From Celeribacter sp. HF31 (lineage in GTDB: Bacteria; Pseudomonadota; Alphaproteobacteria; Rhodobacterales; Rhodobacteraceae), in assembly GCF_011806455.1 (NCBI RefSeq), contig NZ_JAATOT010000008.1, forward strand, positions 1 through 64,000: a DNA stretch of 64,000 nt, read 5' to 3'. This document shows, piece by piece, positions 4,836 through 20,141 of this stretch (its first letter is position 1; each line of letters begins with the position of its first letter). Below the pieces are notes generated by a model. It was not told the origin of the DNA. It saw only the letters and a program-made list of their open reading frames with translations, and did not search any database. A program made the position numbers and the translations under genes.

Positions 4836-6176
4836 TTAGCCCGCGTTACAGGCGCCCAGTGCGCCGCCTGCGAACATCGGGTGATCCGGGGCGTAGGTGA
4901 CCTGAGACGCCGGGGTGACCTCGACCACTTCCAAGAGGTCGAACTCGGAGGTCGGGTTCTCTTTGCCGCGCACCACGAGTACGTCTTTGAAGCACTGGTG
5001 ATCCTCGGCGCGGTAGAGCGTCGGCCCGTTGCCCAGCCCGTCGAACTCAAAGCCTTCGAGGGCTTCGACGACGGCACAGGGGTTGAACGACCCGGCACGC
5101 GCCACGGCGTCCGCATAGAGCAGGGTCTGCACATAACAGGTGTGCGCGGCCTGCGACGGCGGGAAGCCGTATTTGGTGCCAAAGCTCTTCACAAAGGCCT
5201 GGGACCCCTCATCCGTGAGCGACCAATGCCAGTTGGTGGAACCAAGGATGCCCTTGATATTCTCACCCGCACCGCGCGCCATCAGACGCGAGAAGAGCGG
5301 CACGACGATCTCGAAATTCTTGCCGTTGACCATCTTTTCACGCAGCCCGAATTGCACCGCGTTGGTCAGCGAATTGACCATATCGCCGCCGTAGTGGTTC
5401 AGGATCAGCACATCCGCATCCGTCTGCAACACCGGCGTGATGTAGGACGAGAAATCGCCCGCGCCCAAGGGCGTGCGGACCTTGTTCACGGTTTCCCAAC
5501 CGAGCGCTTCGGTCGCCGCCGCGATGCTTTCTTCCTGGGTCCAGCCCCATGTGTAATCCGCCGTCAGGTGATAGGCCTTGCGATCCGCACCGTAGCGCGC
5601 CGCCAACACCGGCGCCAGGGCCGCACCCGACATGTAAGCGTTAAAGAAATGACGGAAGCCATTGGCTTTCTTGTCTTTCCCGGTCGTGTCGTTGGAATGC
5701 GTCAGCCCCGACATGAAGATCACGCCCGCCTCCTGACACAGTCCCTGAACCGCGATCGCCACGCCCGAAGACGACCCGCCGGTGATCATCACCGCGCCGT
5801 CTTTCTCGATCATCGACTTCGCCGAGGCGCGTGCGGCATCGGATTTTGTCTGGGTGTCGCCGGTCACATATTCGACCTTGTGGCCCATGATGCCGTTGCC
5901 TTCCAAAACCTTCGAGCTGAAGGTGTTGAGCATGCCGCCGTCGCCCTCGCCATTGAGGTGTTCGACCGCCAGTTGATAGGCGCGCAGCTCGTCGGCGCCC
6001 TCATCGGCATAGGCGCCCGATTGCGGCACGTTGAACCCGAGCGTCACGGTGCCGCCCATCGGTTCATTGGTAAAGGCGCGGGCGCCAGAGGTGAAAATCG
6101 TCGGCAGCGCCAGACCGGCGCCGGCAACGGCTCCGGTTCTCAGGACTGTGCGGCGTGTCAGATCGGTTTTGGACAT
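4836..6176 (-). CDS. ABC transporter substrate-binding protein, branched-chain amino acid/amide type, Tat-exported
   Basis: Periplasmic receptor, 446 residues. Residues 1-34 form a twin-arginine signal (TDLTRRTVLRTGAVAGAG) ending in an AxA-like site, so it should be exported folded. The mature part is a type I periplasmic binding fold: VTLGFNVPQSGAYADEGADELRAYQLAVEHLN, then GGSSSGVAIAVQGLCQEAGV and DYTWGWTQEESIAA. It heads the operon that continues with livH, livM, livG and livF. The family includes receptors for branched-chain amino acids, urea and short amides, and the ligand cannot be chosen from sequence. The leader just upstream is an 11-bp repeat array whose last unit contains the ribosome-binding site. 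Confidence 0.9.
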   Translation of the reverse strand: MSKTDLTRRTVLRTGAVAGAGLALPTIFTSGARAFTNEPMGGTVTLGFNVPQSGAYADEGADELRAYQLAVEHLNGEGDGGMLNTFSSKVLEGNGIMGHKVEYVTGDTQTKSDAARASAKSMIEKDGAVMITGGSSSGVAIAVQGLCQEAGVIFMSGLTHSNDTTGKDKKANGFRHFFNAYMSGAALAPVLAARYGADRKAYHLTADYTWGWTQEESIAAATEALGWETVNKVRTPLGAGDFSSYITPVLQTDADVLILNHYGGDMVNSLTNAVQFGLREKMVNGKNFEIVVPLFSRLMARGAGENIKGILGSTNWHWSLTDEGSQAFVKSFGTKYGFPPSQAAHTCYVQTLLYADAVARAGSFNPCAVVEALEGFEFDGLGNGPTLYRAEDHQCFKDVLVVRGKENPTSEFDLLEVVEVTPASQVTYAPDHPMFAGGALGACNAG

Positions 6177-12809: not shown

Positions 12810-12823
12810 TTGATGTGAATCAA
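12810..12823 (+). promoter_or_regulatory. Perfect FNR/FnrL-type box upstream of the DksA-like operon
   Basis: TTGATGTGAATCAA matches the TTGAT-N4-ATCAA consensus of FNR/FnrL exactly. Its centre is 57 bp before the DksA-like start codon. A TTAAAT -10 candidate at 12851-12856 would put the centre near -45 relative to transcription start, close to the class II activator position. A Dnr/CRP-family relative could also bind it. Confidence 0.75.
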
Positions 12824-12873
12824 GGCTTTTCCCGGGATTTGGATTGATCCTTAAATATCAGGGAGGAGCCATC

Positions 12874-13209
12874 ATGAGCACATATGATAAAAGACGCGCG
12901 CAATTGTTGGACCGCAAAGCCGAACTGACCGAGCGTCTCGAAGAGATCGATGCCGAACTGGAGTCCCATCAATCCAAAGACTGGGAAGACCTGGCCACCG
13001 AACGCGAAAGCGATGAAGTTCTCGAAAGCATGGGCGCCTCCGGCAAGGCCGAGATCGCGATGATCAACGCAGCCCTTGAGCGGATGGATGCTGATGAATA
13101 CGGATTTTGCGCCGTCTGCGGAGAAGAAATCAGCGCAGAGCGCCTCGATGTGCTACCCTATACCCCAGTGTGCCGGGATTGCGCCGCCCGCAACGCCGCG
13201 CGTCATTGA
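12874..13209 (+). CDS. DksA/TraR-family zinc-finger protein
   Basis: Small RNA-polymerase-binding candidate of 111 residues. The N-terminal half (6-75) is a predicted helical hairpin (KRRAQLLDRKAELTERLEEIDAEL). The C-terminal half is a four-cysteine zinc finger, C79-x2-C82 and C100-x2-C103, with the family's YGFCAVCGEEI and RLDVLPYTPVCRDC segments. It is shorter than DksA (151 aa) and nearer the TraR/YbiI-like group. The tip of the coiled coil reads ESHQSKDWEDLATERESDEV; the two acidic residues D36 and D39 may correspond to the DksA tip aspartates, but this needs an alignment. The start is fixed by GGGAGGAG 5 bp upstream. It heads a three-gene cluster of small proteins under an FNR-type box, suggesting a low-oxygen role. 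Confidence 0.88.
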   Translation: MSTYDKRRAQLLDRKAELTERLEEIDAELESHQSKDWEDLATERESDEVLESMGASGKAEIAMINAALERMDADEYGFCAVCGEEISAERLDVLPYTPVCRDCAARNAARH

Positions 13210-13290
13210 GAGGTCGCGCTGTCCTGTGAGGAGGATACAGCGAAGCGTGATGTGACCTTGCCAAACACCATGACTTCAGGGAGGAAAGAC

Positions 13291-13479
13291 ATGACCAAAG
13301 TGACGAAAACCGATGCGGAAATCGACAAGATCGTCGATGATCTGGTGAAAGACGAAAAGACGGCAGAGGCCCTGAAAGGCAAGCTGCATCAGTCCTTTGG
13401 GGAGCCGGAGGCACATTTTGCCCACCCGGAGGCCACGAAGGACGACGATGACGACATGTGGGACAATATGCCGGTCTGA
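13291..13479 (+). CDS. Small acidic hypothetical protein (62 aa)
   Basis: Not recognised. The start MTKVTKTDAEIDKIV was chosen because CAGGGAGGAAAG lies directly upstream and the longer reading frame has no ribosome site. The protein is highly charged: residues 9-35 look helical (DKIVDDLVKDEKTAEALKG), and the end is strongly acidic (TKDDDDDMWDNMPV), with two histidines in EAHFAHPEA. It lies 81 bp after the DksA-like gene and 42 bp before another small gene in the same direction, so the three probably share the FNR-boxed promoter. Soluble and cytoplasmic by composition. A protein-binding or metal-buffering role would fit but cannot be supported. Confidence 0.7.
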   Translation: MTKVTKTDAEIDKIVDDLVKDEKTAEALKGKLHQSFGEPEAHFAHPEATKDDDDDMWDNMPV

Positions 13480-13521
13480 GCGCCGCAAAGGCCTGCAAAT
13501 GTCTCAAGAAAGGAGCGCGCC

Positions 13522-13728
13522 ATGGCGTTCGAAGCCCTGAAAACTCAGGTCTATATGATTCTGGACGAAATCGCGGCGCGCCCGGCGGATCGCCATATCT
13601 TGCAGGAGAGCCTGCGCGAAAAACTGGCGGAGCTTTCCGCCTTGGGCCTGCCATTGCCCGATGACCTCGTGCGTCTGGAGGCGGAGCTGGAAGAGAGCGC
13701 CGCCGACAGGATCTACCCACCGGCCTAA
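13522..13728 (+). CDS. Small helical hypothetical protein (68 aa)
   Basis: Not recognised. An AAGAAAGGAG ribosome site precedes the ATG. The sequence reads as one or two amphipathic helices (FEALKTQVYMILDEIAARP and LQESLREKLAELSALGLPLP), then a third (DDLVRLEAELEE). There is no signal peptide or membrane span. It is the last of three small co-directional genes after the DksA-like gene, and a strong hairpin follows 2 bp after its stop codon. That position supports a shared transcript from the FNR-type promoter at 12.8 kb. Composition suggests a small oligomeric cytoplasmic protein. Confidence 0.7.
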   Translation: MAFEALKTQVYMILDEIAARPADRHILQESLREKLAELSALGLPLPDDLVRLEAELEESAADRIYPPA

Positions 13729-13730
13729 GA

Positions 13731-13770
13731 CGTTTCTGCTTAAACCTGACTCCGGGTTGGAGCAGAAACG
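13731..13770 (+). terminator. Long hairpin after the DksA-like operon
   Basis: CGTTTCTGCT (13731-13740) pairs perfectly with AGCAGAAACG (13761-13770), and an inner AACC/GGTT extends the stem. No run of T follows (CTTTAGG), so it may act with Rho or protect the 3' end. Confidence 0.5.
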
Positions 13771-13869
13771 CTTTAGGTCGCAACACCCCGGAGACATCTC
13801 ACACCGTGCGTTGCTCTCTCAAATCATCTTGCCTTAAGGGCATGCCCTCCGCCATGATGTGGAAAAACC

Positions 13870-13889
13870 TGTGGGGAACCTGTGGATAA
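13870..13889 (+). promoter_or_regulatory. Tandem DnaA-box-like sequences upstream of the FadB-like gene
   Basis: TGTGGGGAA (13870-13878) and TGTGGATAA (13881-13889) lie 2 bp apart. The second is an exact DnaA box (reverse of TTATCCACA). The first has one or two deviations. The region 13771-13955 has no gene and no other clear signal. A single perfect box occurs by chance now and then, so function is uncertain. Confidence 0.35.
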
Positions 13890-13955
13890 CTCCGGCGCAG
13901 CGATCGGAGTGTGACGTCAGGTGCCATCCCCGCAGCACGTCAGGGGGCGGTGAGT

Positions 13956-16049
13956 ATGAGTGAAACCAAGCTGGTGGAACCGGGTCAGATTGGACGACAG
14001 AGCGCGGCGCATGAACCCGCCGTGGTCTTGGAGCGCGCGGGCGAGGTCGTGCTTTTGCGCCTGTCGCGCCCACCGCTCAATCTGTTGACCCAAGAGCTGC
14101 GCCAGGCGCTTTGGGACAGCTTGGCCGAGGCGGAGGCGGACCCGGAGGTGAAAGCCATCGTGCTGTCGGGCAGCGGAGCCTCCTTTTGCACCGGTTTTGC
14201 GCCAGACACACTCGAGGCACAGGAGCCCGAGCCCAGCCTCAACGCGCTTTGCGCGCGGATGTCGTCCTGTCCCAAACCTGTCATCGCCTCTTTGCACGGC
14301 TCCACGCTTGAAGGCGGGTTGGCGCTGGCGCTGGCGGCGCATTACCGCGTCATGGGCCGCGCCGCGCGTCTGGGGGCGCCCGAGATCACCTTTGGCCTTG
14401 TGCCGACAGGCGGCGTGACGCAACTCCTGCCGCGCCTCATCGGGGCTGGACCGGCGTTGGACGTGCTGCTCTCCGGGCGCCCGGTCTCAGGGCCGCAAGC
14501 GGCCAAGCTTGGCCTGGTGGACGACTTGGCGCATAAACGCGTGGGCGAGGCGGCGATGGCCTTTGCGAAACGCCTTGTTGCCGCCGGACAAGGCCCGCGT
14601 CCCAGCCAGGATCGCACCGAGGGCCTGCGCGATGGGGCCGGTTATTTCAAGGAAATTACAGCACGGCGCGAAGAAATCCGCGGCGCGCGGATCATTGCGA
14701 CTGCGCGGATCATCGACTGTGTCGAGGCGGCGCTCATGCTGCCCTACGAGGCCGGGGTGCGTCGTGAAATGGTCGCCCGCGAAGAGTGTTTTGCCACCGA
14801 AGAGGCGAAAGCCCTGCGTCATGCGTTTTTCTCCGAACGCCGCGCTTCGCGGTTGATCGGAGCAGAGGGCGCCGTCCCGCGAGAGGTCAAGACGCTGGGC
14901 CTCGTGGGCTCGGGGAATTTCGCGCTCGGCATCGTGATGGCGGCCCTCGATCATGAGATCGAGGTCCGACTGCTGGGCAACTCCGCCGACCAGCTCGTGC
15001 GCGATGAGCAGCGGATCAATTCGGTCTACACCCGCGCGGTGCAACAGGGGCAACTCACGGCCGAGCAACGCGATGCGCGTCTCAAATCCCTGGTCGCGAC
15101 CACGCAAATCAACAGGCTGGCCGAGACCGATCTTGTGCTCGACGCCACCGCCGGTTCGATTGACGCACGCACGCGGCTTTTGGCCCGGATCGAGGAATTC
15201 CTGCCCGAAACCTCTGTTCTGGCGACCGTCGCAGAGCGCGGCTTTGCGCGGATGGCGCAGGATCTGGCCCATCCGGAACGCTTTGTCGGGCTGCATTTCT
15301 TTGCTCCCTCACAGGCGATCCGCGTGGTCGAACTGGCGCGCTGCGACGGCGTCGATCTGACGGCCCTGGCCACCGCGCACGACTTCTTGCAGCGGATCGG
15401 CAAGGTGCCGGTGACCGTCCGCGCCCGCGATGGGTTGATTGCCAATGTCGTGCAGGAGGCGGGTTGGTCCGCCGTCGACGTGCTTTTGCTCATGGGCGCG
15501 CGGCCCGCGCGGATTGATGCGGTGATGCGGTCGTATGGCTGTGCGGCGGGACCCTGTGAAGTCATGGATGCGATCGGTCTCCCGCATATGTCCGGTGCCG
15601 TGGCGCAGTTTTTGGTCAGCGAAGGCCGCAAGGGCAAAGCCGCGGGCCAAGGGTTTTACGACTATCGCGACGACGGTGCGCGCGACGATACGGAAGCCGA
15701 AGCCATTCTGGCCGATCTGCGTCGACAAGGCGGTGTGCCGGACCTGCATCTGACGGATCAGGACATCTACGAACGCATCGTTCTGGCCGAAGCCAACGCG
15801 GGCGCGCGGCTGTTACAATCGGGCCGTGCCGAGCATCCGGTCGACATCGACGTGGTGATGATGTTGGCCAAGGGGCATCCGCGCTATCGCGGCGGTCCGA
15901 TGAAGGCGGTCGATCTCATGGGGCTCTTGCATGCCGAAATGCGGCTGCGCAGCTTTGCCGATCAGGCACCGGAAATTTGGGAGCCTGCGACAATCTGGCG
16001 CGAATTGATCAAAAATGGCGATAATTTCGAAAGTTTGAACCTTCTCTGA
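13956..16049 (+). CDS. FadB/FadJ-like enoyl-CoA hydratase/3-hydroxyacyl-CoA dehydrogenase
   Basis: Bifunctional beta-oxidation protein of 697 residues. Residues 20-210 are a crotonase fold, about 310-490 the NAD-binding hydroxyacyl-CoA dehydrogenase domain (GSGNFALG from G318), and the rest the two C-terminal dehydrogenase domains. Dehydrogenase catalytic features are present: LHFFAPSQAIRVVELAR supplies the His and Glu, and GLIANVVQEA the Asn. In the crotonase part the second catalytic glutamate is kept (E143 in APEITFG), but the first, normally in GGGxE, is replaced: the motif reads LEGGLALAL with alanine at position 123. Hydratase activity may therefore be weak or lost. The start MSETKLVEPG is preceded by GGGGGCGGTGAG. 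No thiolase gene is adjacent, which is unusual for a fadBA pair. Confidence 0.85.
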   Translation: MSETKLVEPGQIGRQSAAHEPAVVLERAGEVVLLRLSRPPLNLLTQELRQALWDSLAEAEADPEVKAIVLSGSGASFCTGFAPDTLEAQEPEPSLNALCARMSSCPKPVIASLHGSTLEGGLALALAAHYRVMGRAARLGAPEITFGLVPTGGVTQLLPRLIGAGPALDVLLSGRPVSGPQAAKLGLVDDLAHKRVGEAAMAFAKRLVAAGQGPRPSQDRTEGLRDGAGYFKEITARREEIRGARIIATARIIDCVEAALMLPYEAGVRREMVAREECFATEEAKALRHAFFSERRASRLIGAEGAVPREVKTLGLVGSGNFALGIVMAALDHEIEVRLLGNSADQLVRDEQRINSVYTRAVQQGQLTAEQRDARLKSLVATTQINRLAETDLVLDATAGSIDARTRLLARIEEFLPETSVLATVAERGFARMAQDLAHPERFVGLHFFAPSQAIRVVELARCDGVDLTALATAHDFLQRIGKVPVTVRARDGLIANVVQEAGWSAVDVLLLMGARPARIDAVMRSYGCAAGPCEVMDAIGLPHMSGAVAQFLVSEGRKGKAAGQGFYDYRDDGARDDTEAEAILADLRRQGGVPDLHLTDQDIYERIVLAEANAGARLLQSGRAEHPVDIDVVMMLAKGHPRYRGGPMKAVDLMGLLHAEMRLRSFADQAPEIWEPATIWRELIKNGDNFESLNLL

Positions 16050-16151
16050 GGGTTGTAAGATTTTTCGGGGCGATTTTTTTGACGAAAAACGCTGGTTTTC
16101 ACTGATTTTTGCCGCTCTGCAGCGTGGTCAATATCTCCTTCGAAGATGCGG

Positions 16152-16165
16152 TTGATCGAGATCAA
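16152..16165 (+). promoter_or_regulatory. Perfect FNR/FnrL-type box
   Basis: TTGATCGAGATCAA matches TTGAT-N4-ATCAA exactly. It lies 103 bp after the FadB-like stop and about 290 bp before the next gene. A CATATT -10 candidate at 16186-16191 puts transcription start near 16198, which places the box centre at about -40, the classical class II activator position. Confidence 0.75.
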
Positions 16166-16197
16166 TGTTTTCACGAATCCTCTGACATATTCCTTAT

Positions 16198-16360
16198 CCC
16201 GAGCGCAGGGTTCCAGTGTCAGCAGTCAGACGAGGCGCCCTGCATTCCTCCCGCGGACTCTCCTTCCGATCGTCCGCGCCGTATCCTGCCTTTTGTGCGT
16301 GGGCAGAATACCATACTGGCGTCACAGGGTTTGCGTTTCTCCTGTGACGCCTCTTTTTTT
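16198..16360 (+). ncRNA. Candidate FNR-controlled small RNA ending in an intrinsic terminator
   Basis: Between the FadB-like gene and the molybdopterin-binding gene there is no credible open frame, but there is a compact transcription unit: an FNR-type box at 16152, a -10-like hexamer at 16186 and a strong terminator at 16318-16360. The predicted RNA is about 160 nt. It holds several pyrimidine stretches that could pair with Shine-Dalgarno regions: CCTCCCGC near 16245, CTCTCCTTCC near 16258, and TTTCTCC in the terminator loop. FNR-induced small RNAs are known (FnrS in enterobacteria). The alternative is a leader of the molybdopterin-binding gene with premature termination. Confidence 0.5.
16318..16360 (+). 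terminator. Strong Rho-independent terminator
   Basis: GGCGTCACAGG (16318-16328) and CCTGTGACGCC (16341-16351) form a perfect 11-bp stem with a 12-nt loop, followed by TCTTTTTTT. This is one of the best terminators in the window and it ends about 97 bp before the next gene. Confidence 0.85.
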
Positions 16361-16456
16361 GCCTGTTCCTGTCCTGTCCGGCTCTCGTTCAGCTCGTGGT
16401 AACCCTTGTCATGCCTCATGGAGCGTGCACTCTGGGGCTGGGAAAGGCAGGTTTGG

Positions 16457-17422
16457 ATGATTTTTGAAAGCCGACCGGTGCGACTGGCGAAAGGGGCTTG
16501 GCTCGCGCGGGACATCACACTGAGCTCTGGTGCGAAAATCGCGCGCGGGCGTCGGATTGGCCCCGAAGACATCGCGGCCTTGACCATGGCCGGGATTGCA
16601 GAGATCCCGGTGGTGGAGGGGGAGACACACGATGTGCCCGCAGATGAGGCCGTCGAGCGGCTGGCCAAGGCGCTTGTGCCGCATCTGGGGGATGCCTTTT
16701 TGCGGCGCGAGCTGAGCCAATACGGCTGTCTCGACCTGATCGCCACGGCCCCCGGCGTGGTCGGTCTCGACACACAGGGCATCACCCGGATGAACCGGGT
16801 CGATGAGGGCATCGCTGTCATCACACGGGGGCAATTTCAACGCGTGTGTGCGGGCGAGCTCGTCGCGCGGCTACGGATCGTGCCGCTGGCGGTGAAACGC
16901 TCTGCCCTGTCGCGGGTGGTGAGCGAGGGCGAAGATATGATCCGCCTGCGGCCCGTGCTGGCGGAGACGGTGACGCTGATCCAGACCATTGAGGGCGGCG
17001 AAGCGGGGCAGGGCGCCGAGGCGGCGATTCGCGCCCGTCTGGCCCTTTTGGGGCTCAAATTGGCCGAGAGCCTCGTGGTTGCCCATCGCGAAGAGGCCCT
17101 CGCCGAGGCACTTTTGTCGGTCACCGGAGATGTCGTCTTGATCCTGCCTGCGCGGGCTACGGTGGACCGTCATGATGTCGCCCCCGAGGCGGTGCGCCGC
17201 GCCGGGGGCGTGATCACGCGCTTTGGCATTCCGGTCGATCCCGGTGCCTCGATGTTCGCAGGTGGGCTTGGCTCCGTGCCCATTCTGGGCCTGCCGGGCT
17301 GTGCCCGCCTGAGCGCTCTGAATGGGACGGATTGGGTCTTTGAACGGCTGGTCTGCGGGGTCAGCATCTCGGATGACGATTTGGCCGACCTGGGCGTCGG
17401 GGGGCTTTTGCCGCGCGGATAA
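16457..17422 (+). CDS. Molybdopterin-binding (MoeA/MogA-fold) protein
   Basis: Protein of 321 residues from the chosen start MIFESRPVRLAKGAWLARD. The N-terminal part (about 1-110) with LSSGAKIARGRRIGPEDIAALTMAGIAEIPVV is the MoeA-like domain seen in molybdopterin-binding proteins linked to xanthine-oxidase-family enzymes. Residues 170-320 resemble the molybdopterin-binding fold, with VTGDVVLILPARATVDRHDV, VPILGLPGCARLSALNGTDWVFERL at the end. Many relatives carry an extra C-terminal nucleotidyltransferase domain (MocA-like), which is absent here. The likely role is handling Moco for a hydroxylase. No molybdoenzyme is adjacent; modA and a ModE-like gene lie 30 kb away. The GGAAAGG upstream supports the start. 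The upstream FNR-box/terminator unit may regulate it. Confidence 0.75.
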   Translation: MIFESRPVRLAKGAWLARDITLSSGAKIARGRRIGPEDIAALTMAGIAEIPVVEGETHDVPADEAVERLAKALVPHLGDAFLRRELSQYGCLDLIATAPGVVGLDTQGITRMNRVDEGIAVITRGQFQRVCAGELVARLRIVPLAVKRSALSRVVSEGEDMIRLRPVLAETVTLIQTIEGGEAGQGAEAAIRARLALLGLKLAESLVVAHREEALAEALLSVTGDVVLILPARATVDRHDVAPEAVRRAGGVITRFGIPVDPGASMFAGGLGSVPILGLPGCARLSALNGTDWVFERLVCGVSISDDDLADLGVGGLLPRG

Positions 17423-17604
17423 TGGCGGATAATTCATGGGCGAAATCCGTTTTCTACGGCAAGGGTCGGGATTTCCCCTTGCATGACCGTTATGCATTTG
17501 CAGAAAATTGACACATATCACTTACTTCTGTGCGTGAGGCGTGCACAGTCGCGCCAAATTCGACTTTACGACAGCCGGGGCTCCTCCCCCAGAAAGCGTG
17601 TCTC

Positions 17605-19287
17605 ATGTCTTTGCCTCTCTCCGATATCGCCCTGACCACCATGGCGCTCTGCCTCGCGGGCGCTCTGGGTCTTTTGCTGGGTAAAATCCAAATCCGAAAG
17701 GTGGGGTTGGGCATCGGCGGCGTGCTGTTTTCCGGCATTCTCATCGGACATCTCGCCTCGCGTGCAGGGATAGAGTTCGATGGCGAGGTGATGCATTTCA
17801 TCCGCGAGCTCGGCCTGATCCTTTTCGTCTACACAATCGGCATTCAGGTCGGCCCGAGTTTTTTCTCCTCCTTCGCCAAATCCGGCCTCAAATTCAACCT
17901 CGCGGCCATTGGCATCGTCTTGGGCGGGGTCGCGATGACCTTGGTGATCTATGCATTGGCCGATCTGCCCTTGCCGGTGCTCGTGGGCGTCATGTCTGGG
18001 GCCGTGACCAACACTCCGGGGCTGGGGGCGGCGCAACAGGTGCTGGGCGATGCGGGCTTTCCGGCTTCCGAGGTGGCGAATTCCGGCACGGGCTACGCGA
18101 TGGCCTATCCCTTTGGGATCCTAGGGATTTTGACATCCATGTTCGTCATTCGGGCTGTGTTCAAAATCGTCCTTGAGCGCGAAGAGGCCGCCTATAAGGC
18201 GGAAAATCAAAGCGGTGAAGAGGCGCTTCCGTCGATGAACATCGCGGTGACCAATGCCAATCTCGATGGTATCAAATTGGGCGATGTGCCGGACCTTTTC
18301 GATCATGGCGTTGTGGCCTCGCGGATGAAACAGGGCGACGAGTTGGTGGTGCCGACCCGTGATGTGATCCTGCATTTGGGCGATTGCCTGCACCTCGTCG
18401 GCCCGAAAGAGAAATTGCAGGCGATGAAGCTCATTCTGGGCCGCGAGATCGACGCCGCGATGACCACGAAAGGCACGCGTCTCACCTGGTCCCGCCTCGT
18501 GGTGACCAAAGAGCGGGTCCTGGGCAAGTCCTTGCGCCAGCTTGCGTTTTTGGAAGGCAACGGGGTCACCGTCTCACGGATCAACCGCGCGGGCGTCGAA
18601 CTTCCGGCGCAGGCCTCTTCGACCTTGGCCTTTGGCGACATCGTGACCGTGGTCGGCTCGCAACCCGACATCGACGCGGTGGCGCATCAACTGGGCAATG
18701 AGAACGCGCGGCTGCAAGAGGTGCATTTCCCGGCGCTGTTTTTCGGCATCGCCTTGGGGGTGCTTTTGGGGTCCATCCCTCTTGCTGTCCCCGGCCTGCC
18801 AGCGCCGTTGAAGCTGGGCCTTGCGGGCGGGCCGTTGATGGCCGCGATCCTTTTGGGGCGTCTGGGCCATTGGGGGCCGTTCACCTGGTACATGCCGCCC
18901 GCGGCCAACCATGCGCTGCGCGAATTCGGCATCGTGTTGTTTCTGGCCGTCGTCGGCATCGTCGCAGGCGATCGGTTCTTTGACACGCTTTTCCACGGCG
19001 ACGGGCTCAGTTGGATGGGCTATGGCATCCTGATCACGCTGGTGCCCCTGCTGGTCGTCGGCGTGATCGCGCGGGTGGTTGGCAAGTTCAATTACCTGAG
19101 CCTCTGCGGTGTTCTGGCCGGCTCCATGACCGATCCGCCCGCGCTGGCCTTTGCCGTCTCGATGAGCAAAACGGGCGCGGCCTCGGTGGCCTATGTCTCC
19201 GTCTACCCGCTGGTGATGTTCCTGCGCATTCTGGCGCCGCAGGTGCTGGTGCTCGTGCTGGCAGGCATGGGGGCAGGGGCGTTCTAA
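17605..19287 (+). CDS. AspT/YidE-family membrane transporter with two RCK_C domains
   Basis: Integral membrane protein of 560 residues. The first hydrophobic block (about 5-170) and the last (about 390-555) are the paired AspT/YidE transporter halves, with GAVTNTPGLGAAQQVLGDAG and the mirror motif LAGSMTDPPALAFA near the end. Between them are two TrkA_C/RCK_C-type ligand domains (about 205-285 and 290-375, for example LGKSLRQLAFLEGNGVTVSRINRAG). AspT of Tetragenococcus exchanges aspartate for alanine, while YidE has no agreed substrate, so the substrate here is open. The chosen start MSLPLSDIALTTM directly precedes the first span. The gene stands alone, convergent with infC, sharing the bidirectional terminator at 19301. 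Confidence 0.85.
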   Translation: MSLPLSDIALTTMALCLAGALGLLLGKIQIRKVGLGIGGVLFSGILIGHLASRAGIEFDGEVMHFIRELGLILFVYTIGIQVGPSFFSSFAKSGLKFNLAAIGIVLGGVAMTLVIYALADLPLPVLVGVMSGAVTNTPGLGAAQQVLGDAGFPASEVANSGTGYAMAYPFGILGILTSMFVIRAVFKIVLEREEAAYKAENQSGEEALPSMNIAVTNANLDGIKLGDVPDLFDHGVVASRMKQGDELVVPTRDVILHLGDCLHLVGPKEKLQAMKLILGREIDAAMTTKGTRLTWSRLVVTKERVLGKSLRQLAFLEGNGVTVSRINRAGVELPAQASSTLAFGDIVTVVGSQPDIDAVAHQLGNENARLQEVHFPALFFGIALGVLLGSIPLAVPGLPAPLKLGLAGGPLMAAILLGRLGHWGPFTWYMPPAANHALREFGIVLFLAVVGIVAGDRFFDTLFHGDGLSWMGYGILITLVPLLVVGVIARVVGKFNYLSLCGVLAGSMTDPPALAFAVSMSKTGAASVAYVSVYPLVMFLRILAPQVLVLVLAGMGAGAF

Positions 19288-19300
19288 ACTGCCCAAAGAA

Positions 19301-19330
19301 AAACCCCGGCGCCTACAAGGCCCGGGGTTT
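19301..19330. terminator. Bidirectional terminator between transporter gene and infC
   Basis: AAACCCCGG (19301-19309) and CCGGGGTTT (19322-19330) form a perfect 9-bp stem. On the minus strand it is followed by TTTTTCTTT, a good U-tract for infC. On the plus strand a weaker TTTGTCATTTC follows. Confidence 0.85.
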
Positions 19331-19353
19331 GTCATTTCAAAAGACTCGAAATC

Positions 19354-19905
19354 TTAGCCCTTGGCAGGCAGCGGCCCGATCATCATGACCATCTGGCGGC
19401 CTTCCATCTTCGGCATGTTCTCGATCTTGCCGATTTCCTTGGTGTCCTCGGCCACGCGTTCCAAAAGCTGACGGCCCAGATCCTGGTGCGCCATCTCACG
19501 ACCGCGGAACCGCAGGGTAACTTTCACCTTGTCGCCATTCTCAAGGAACTTGACCACATTGCGCATCTTGACTTCATAATCGTGAACATCGGTGCCGGGA
19601 CGGAATTTGACTTCCTTGATCTCGATGATCTTTTGTTTCTTGCGGGCTTCGGATTCACGCTTTTGCTGTTCGTATTTGAACTTGCCGTAATCCATGATCT
19701 TGCACACAGGCGGAGTGGCATTCGGAGAAATCTCGACGAGATCCAATCCGGCCTCTGCGGCCATATCCATGGCTTTCGCGGGGTGAACAACCCCCACGTT
19801 TTCACCCTCGGCGCCGATCAGGCGAATTTCCGGTGCGCGGATGCGTTCGTTGATACGCGGTCCGGTGTCACGGGTCGGCGGGGCGTTATGCGGTCTACGG
19901 GCTAT
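19354..19905 (-). CDS. infC: Translation initiation factor IF-3 with a non-standard ATA start codon
   Basis: IF-3 binds the 30S subunit, prevents premature 50S joining and discriminates against incorrect start codons. The protein has 183 residues with the N domain ([21 protein letters not shown]), a basic helical linker ([15 protein letters not shown]) and the C domain ([18 protein letters not shown]). No ATG, GTG or TTG lies at the family N-terminus. The codon before [15 protein letters not shown] is ATA (19903-19905), with AGGAG placed 6 nt upstream. IF-3 genes of many bacteria use AUU, AUC or AUA so that excess IF-3 represses its own translation. The upstream in-frame extension to an ATG at 20058 is not IF-3-like. 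The usual neighbours rpmI and rplT are not here. Confidence 0.93.
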
Positions 19906-20141
19906 GGTAAGCTCCTGTCTGTCATTGCATTTGTGTTGCGGAAAAATAAGGCCAAACGCGCCCGCTTTCAACCCGCATTCGGCGAGTTCTCGCACATCTC
20001 CGCTTGCGGGGAAAAAACCGGCGATGCGGCCCTTACATTCCTGTAACACGCATGTCATATGCCGCAGTGGAGGGGGAGCTTAGACTGCCCCAGTCCGGCC
20101 ACATCCTTCGTGGCCCATGCATTTGGTGAGGAAGACACACA

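Follow-up and report, generated by a model that had tools for sequence, protein, structure and literature searches.

The stretch of Celeribacter sp. HF31 DNA analysed here (the window, 64,000 nucleotides) contains, at 16152-16360 between a fadB-like and a molybdopterin-binding gene, an FNR box, a weak -10 hexamer and a terminator that, on direct reading of the sequence, frame about 160 nt (Table 1). Pfam supports the fadB-like, AspT-type and infC genes of the window; the molybdopterin-binding gene scores 22 bits, under the cut-off of 26.6. An initial annotation of this DNA had claimed a perfect FNR box, a -10-like hexamer, an 11-bp terminator with seven T's, and three CU-rich stretches. Direct reading bears out the box, and the other features are there as well, though the hexamer is weak. 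An RNA start at about 16200 is expected if the centre of the FNR box corresponds to -41.5. The GAG at the 5' end of hairpin 1 is invariant in the 19 same-genus copies described below. The CU-rich loop of hairpin 2 is kept only in the Celeribacter-type copies, and Pacificibacter retains a C-rich linker. A TCAAT element upstream of the box is present in all 15 Celeribacter-type loci (L001-L015) and absent from L018 and L019.

Table 1. Features of the predicted small RNA gene, in window coordinates
Feature	Position	Strand	Basis and remarks
TCAAT element	16128..16132	+	begins 24 nt before the FNR box
FNR/FnrL box (putative), TTGATCGAGATCAA	16152..16165	+	direct reading; perfect TTGAT-N4-ATCAA, in 19/19 same-genus loci
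-10-like hexamer TATTCC	16188..16193	+	weak; only T-A-T matches TATAAT
Small RNA (predicted)	16200..16360	+	start inferred at 16199-16203; end is the T run
Hairpin 1	16201..16247	+	fold and alignment; GAG at 5' end
Linker CCTCCC	16247..16252	+	CU-rich; partly single-stranded, anti-Shine-Dalgarno-like
Hairpin 2	16252..16278	+	loop contains TCCTTCCGAT, without variation across the 15 Celeribacter-type copies
CU-rich stretch CTCCTTCC	16260-16267		in the loop of hairpin 2
Hairpin 3	16281..16311	+	loop region TTGTGCGTGG at 16293-16302
Intrinsic terminator	16318..16360	+	11-bp stem (arms GGCGTCACAGG, 16318-16328, and CCTGTGACGCC, 16341-16351), then TC and TTTTTTT (16354-16360)
CU-rich stretch TTTCTCC	16336-16342		in the terminator loop and stem

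A DNA search of 61 genomes returned 20 matches. One is the window itself, 18 come from as many of the 19 same-genus relatives, and the last, from a further genome (G026), spans only 28 bp (L020) and was dropped before alignment. The sole same-genus miss is a genome that is 85% complete (G006). Thirteen of the 18 relatives are 9 Celeribacter and 4 Pacificibacter. Beyond the same-genus set, copies were found in Aquimixticola soesokkakensis (G085, L034, identical in sequence to L063) and in G132 (L035). Covariance model R1 was applied with strict filters, under which distant copies may be missed, to 394 genomes representing 393 genera and gave 15 matches at E ≤0.01. In four of these matches the hallmark loop was accompanied by an FNR-type box (the window's own genome, Pacificibacter maritimus G002, G085 and G132), a narrow distribution of 4 in 394 genomes. 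Eleven R1 matches (L036-L046) were rejected, as their loci had no FNR-type box and no hallmark loop was seen in them; model R2 gave them weak scores of 10.9 to 32.9 bits, with L037 at the top. In the genome of L036 (G334), no match to a loose hallmark pattern was found. The loose pattern was present in 75 of the 394 genomes, and in the 30 loci examined the R2 copies were L109, L115 and L116; the G132 copy lay outside these 30 and is represented by L035. Four loci from other genera (L039, L040, L041 and L043) have in common an element, CTTCCTGTTGGC(T/G)ACAGG, in front of a GGCGTCGC-like terminator, perhaps another small RNA family.

When named records were scanned, 24 stretches were obtained, and the family among them comprised 9 Celeribacter, 4 Pacificibacter and 1 Aquimixticola. 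A Roseovarius albus stretch, which lies within a coding frame, and nine unrelated records scored at most 9.2 bits and were not counted as family. Searches of plasmids and of viral contigs gave no match to the RNA. The upstream gene provided another route: a fadB-like match at E ≤1e-50 was present in 139 of 198 genomes, and among 28 of 30 fadB-like loci, two truncated ones being set aside, a perfect box within 700 nt downstream was found solely in the window's own. Imperfect box-like sites lay about 500 nt away in L073 and L076, and the other loci had none; the places downstream of the fadB-like gene in the 27 other examined loci were taken as not orthologous.

The sequence TTGAT-N4-ATCAA is the FnrL/FNR consensus, and FNR activates from about -41.5. 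The distance from the centre of the box to the conserved GAG is 42.5 nt in 15 same-genus loci and 41.5 nt in 4, which would place the box about at the activating position. When rows were anchored on the box, the half-sites were identical in both same-genus lineages, Celeribacter-type and Pacificibacter-type; identity between the lineages beside it was 26% in the 45 nt upstream and 35% in the 22 nt downstream. Since anchoring itself demands the half-sites, what matters is that no locus lacks a box of this kind at this position. The copies from Aquimixticola and G132 have TTGAC variants of the box, which in G132 sits closer to the modelled RNA start. A TAT core at the -10 distance is kept in many copies and is missing from L010 and L017. 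Consensus scans of 13000-20000 revealed no σ70-type promoter at the element and 9 terminator-like sites versus a shuffle mean of 7.8, i.e., no excess; of the terminator's 11 stem pairs the scan recovered just 5, because its loop limit was 8. The box is not exceptional within the window, where 3 sites with at most one mismatch were found (1.67 expected; equalled in 28 of 100 shuffles). Genome-wide (3.6 Mb), there were 11 perfect boxes versus none for a reversed control pattern.

The RNA folded with its terminator has a z-score of -4.6, and without it one of -3.16; in neither case did any of 200 shuffled sequences fold as well. Trimmed single-sequence folds of four relatives were unexceptional (z -0.7 to -1.4). 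Alignment of the 19 copies gave three main hairpins and the terminator, with 97.5% of cells paired in the consensus structure. With a structure derived from this same alignment, and relative to shuffles that ignore relatedness, changes on both sides were seen at 16 of 41 pairs and in 51 cells (8.0 and 11.2 in shuffles; 0 of 500 as high), while structures slid by 1-3 columns gave at most 6 pairs and 10 cells. Four of five covariation measures beat all 500 shuffles, and the fifth, further pair types, was equalled by 14 of 500. Because the structure came from its own alignment and the shuffles were blind to kinship, a separate model was built from the 15 Celeribacter-type copies. In 38 sources, some of them identical places under two identifiers, it detected six distinct held-out loci, the four Pacificibacter copies, Aquimixticola and G132, with E values from 1.4e-20 to 1.5e-9 (next best, 1.2). 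The most conserved piece, the loop of hairpin 3, is identical in 21 copies, two of which (L034 and L035) were accepted partly because of it. Thus box-to-RNA spacing, structure and compensatory changes, which the initial annotation had named for comparison among relatives, proved to be conserved or present.

The element could encode something other than an independent RNA. Two open frames cross it, one of 97 aa starting at 16109 and one of 104 aa starting at 16146, and a 43-codon GTG frame lies within the RNA, so the earlier statement that the roughly 160 nt hold no open frame is not literally correct; what stands is that no start-to-stop frame is common to all 19 copies. A short protein made from the GTG frame, or a dual-function RNA, would accord with the frame being intact in L001-L004 and with its middle reading alike in several other copies, the latter a consequence of the DNA being nearly identical there. 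Given the lack of a shared frame, its absence from Pacificibacter and the co-varying base pairs, we regard a coding role as exceedingly improbable. A terminated 5' leader of the molybdopterin-binding gene, attenuator- or riboswitch-like, with hairpins that control read-through, was the alternative offered by the initial annotation; the next gene is indeed on the same strand, its listed frame beginning at 16406, 45 nt past the T run. However, the RNA stays while the downstream gene, named by eye in the relatives, changes: it is molybdopterin-binding in L001-L003, L006 and L010, an AspT-type permease in L004, L005, L007, L008 and L014, XdhC-like in L009, L011, L012, L015 and also L035, and a convergent infC in L016-L019 and L034 (in L018 via an antisense frame), a grouping that leaves out L013. 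This variability disfavours a leader of one particular gene, and no matching leader was found in Rfam; we consider the leader reading very unlikely. A fadB-like gene, for its part, is the immediate upstream neighbour in all 19 same-genus loci and in L034, in keeping with an sRNA that arises mainly from the mRNA of this gene, through 3' UTR processing, but a conserved FNR box at a near-constant distance separates gene and RNA, making such an origin highly improbable.

An independent RNA might also be switched by a regulator other than FnrL. The genome encodes FnrL (NF045989, 456.8 bits versus a cut-off of 300), and two further clear HTH_Crp_2 regulators, one with N-terminal cysteines (L205) and one without (L206). 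The same sRNA could answer to another CRP/FNR paralogue, for instance one that senses nitric oxide, an idea to which L205 and L206 lend some weight; yet the box has the FnrL/FNR consensus, and a perfect box also precedes the uspA-like gene that adjoins fnrL. Control by a paralogue is, in our estimate, unlikely, and its probability overlaps that of the main reading and is not to be added to it. Other perfect boxes are near genes resembling, by eye, uspA, ccoP and ctaC. One of the perfect boxes (L027, G000:C10:230942) is followed, about 0.13 kb downstream, by a frame resembling by eye subunit II of an aa3-type oxidase, which suggests FnrL control of the aerobic oxidase.

A second perfect FNR box in the window (12810-12823) precedes a DksA-like gene (12844-13209), and such a box is present in all four Celeribacter loci having the gene (L056, L061, L064 and L065). 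Of 14 family loci examined, 4, all of them Celeribacter, have the dksA-like gene with its conserved FNR box at a distance of 3.1-3.25 kb from the RNA; three Pacificibacter loci with enough upstream DNA (L050, L053 and L070) gave no dksA-like match. A connection of the gene with the RNA is a lead without statistical support.

To look for targets, complements of three candidate seeds were searched. The exact complement of loop 3 occurred at 56 sites in five genomes versus 30 for the control (30 inspected, some of which fell in the gene of the RNA), that of loop 2 before an ATG at 13 sites versus 5 (all 13 inspected), and that of the linker before an ATG at 35 sites versus 6 (26 inspected, 4 rRNA-like ones skipped). 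When mismatches were allowed, in four genomes and with RNA genes counted, there were 51 sites versus 14 for the linker, 20 versus 23 for loop 2 and 55 versus 51 for loop 3; 65 of these loci were inspected and 6 loop-2 loci left out. The only orthologue pair among the sites (L224 and L244) lies inside a coding frame. Among the loci inspected, in four or five genomes per seed, no conserved target was found, and complementarity conserved at the inspected starts was no more than a good Shine-Dalgarno sequence would provide. Linker-type sites include genes of solute-binding proteins, three by Pfam (L179, L181 and L194) and two TctC-like by eye (L192, which has no Pfam match, and L197). In the window, GGGAGGAAT, complementary to the linker, is at the start of a periplasmic binding protein gene (Peripla_BP_6; 4860-6176, minus strand); the ranking of start sites in the window relied on roughly placed gene starts, among which that of the dksA-like gene was missing. 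Since the complement of the linker is a good Shine-Dalgarno sequence anyway, the solute-binding-protein start sites are only leads to targets, without statistical support.

AbcR-type rhizobial sRNAs and the CcsR/Cuckoo RNAs have C-rich anti-Shine-Dalgarno segments, and AbcR acts on mRNAs of solute-binding proteins. Compared through Rfam only, the RNA described here differs from them in having no Rfam match, and it has an FNR box. Rfam yielded only a tRNA elsewhere in the whole window, two weak chance matches to eukaryotic families in the element region up to E 10, nothing in the loci of seven relatives, and no covariance-model match to FnrS, as an Rfam-type family, at the gathering score. Enterobacteria provide the best-known FNR-controlled sRNAs. 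FnrS of Escherichia coli is a short FNR-driven RNA that represses genes dispensable without oxygen (PMC8139620); FNR control is predicted here too, and the role proposed is the same. Unlike FnrS, the present RNA has no Rfam match, and three hairpins precede its terminator. PcrZ of the related bacterium Rhodobacter sphaeroides is likewise a low-oxygen sRNA, dependent on PrrA and FnrL; its FnrL control may be indirect, and it acts on photosynthesis genes (PMC8139620, PMC8307010). For RSs0019 and RSs2461 of R. sphaeroides, ChIP-seq is reported to show FnrL bound at their putative promoter regions; we liken them to our RNA, copies of which are in 4 of 394 sampled genomes, by description (PMC4263372). 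Another paper lists sRNAs of Paracoccus for which Celeribacter has sequence matches (PMC5107571). No description of the present RNA was found in the PMC literature, a scope that most subscription papers fall outside.

We conclude that the stretch very probably holds the gene of a small regulatory RNA, conserved among close relatives and matching no Rfam family. The initial claim of an FnrS-type regulator architecture, and not a protein gene, is supported by the conservation of box, spacing and structure and by the lack of a shared frame. The apparent gene, its promoter anatomy and terminator, the conserved structure and the presence of FnrL are read from DNA. It is highly likely that 16200-16360 is an independent, non-coding sRNA gene, activated by FnrL at low oxygen and acting in trans by pairing with mRNAs to lower their translation. 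We infer transcription, dependence on oxygen and FnrL, use of Hfq, pairing and the direction of regulation from these features, as follows. Low oxygen would let FnrL keep its iron-sulphur cluster, bind the box centred near -41.5 and activate transcription; the RNA would end at its own terminator, with a U tail that would suit Hfq. Exposed C-rich segments (the linker CCUCCC and loop CUCCUUCC) and the invariant loop UUGUGCGUGG would be the parts that pair with mRNAs, at ribosome-binding sites for the most part, and translation of genes unwanted at low oxygen would be lowered. The best reading is that the RNA works like FnrS, which does not imply kinship with it.

A more specific proposal is possible, if on balance doubtful: that the RNA represents a new, directly FnrL-driven family of marine roseobacters, the post-transcriptional arm of their oxygen switch, in which the invariant UUGUGCGUGG loop and the C-rich linker pair at the starts of mRNAs for nutrient uptake (solute-binding proteins) and aerobic metabolism. 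In this proposal the dksA-like gene with an FNR box, 3.3 kb upstream, might be one of the targets and so form an incoherent feed-forward loop. For cultivable marine Rhodobacteraceae, a conserved sRNA with a perfect FNR box would open a post-transcriptional layer of oxygen adaptation to testing, with a covariance model and named strains to start from.
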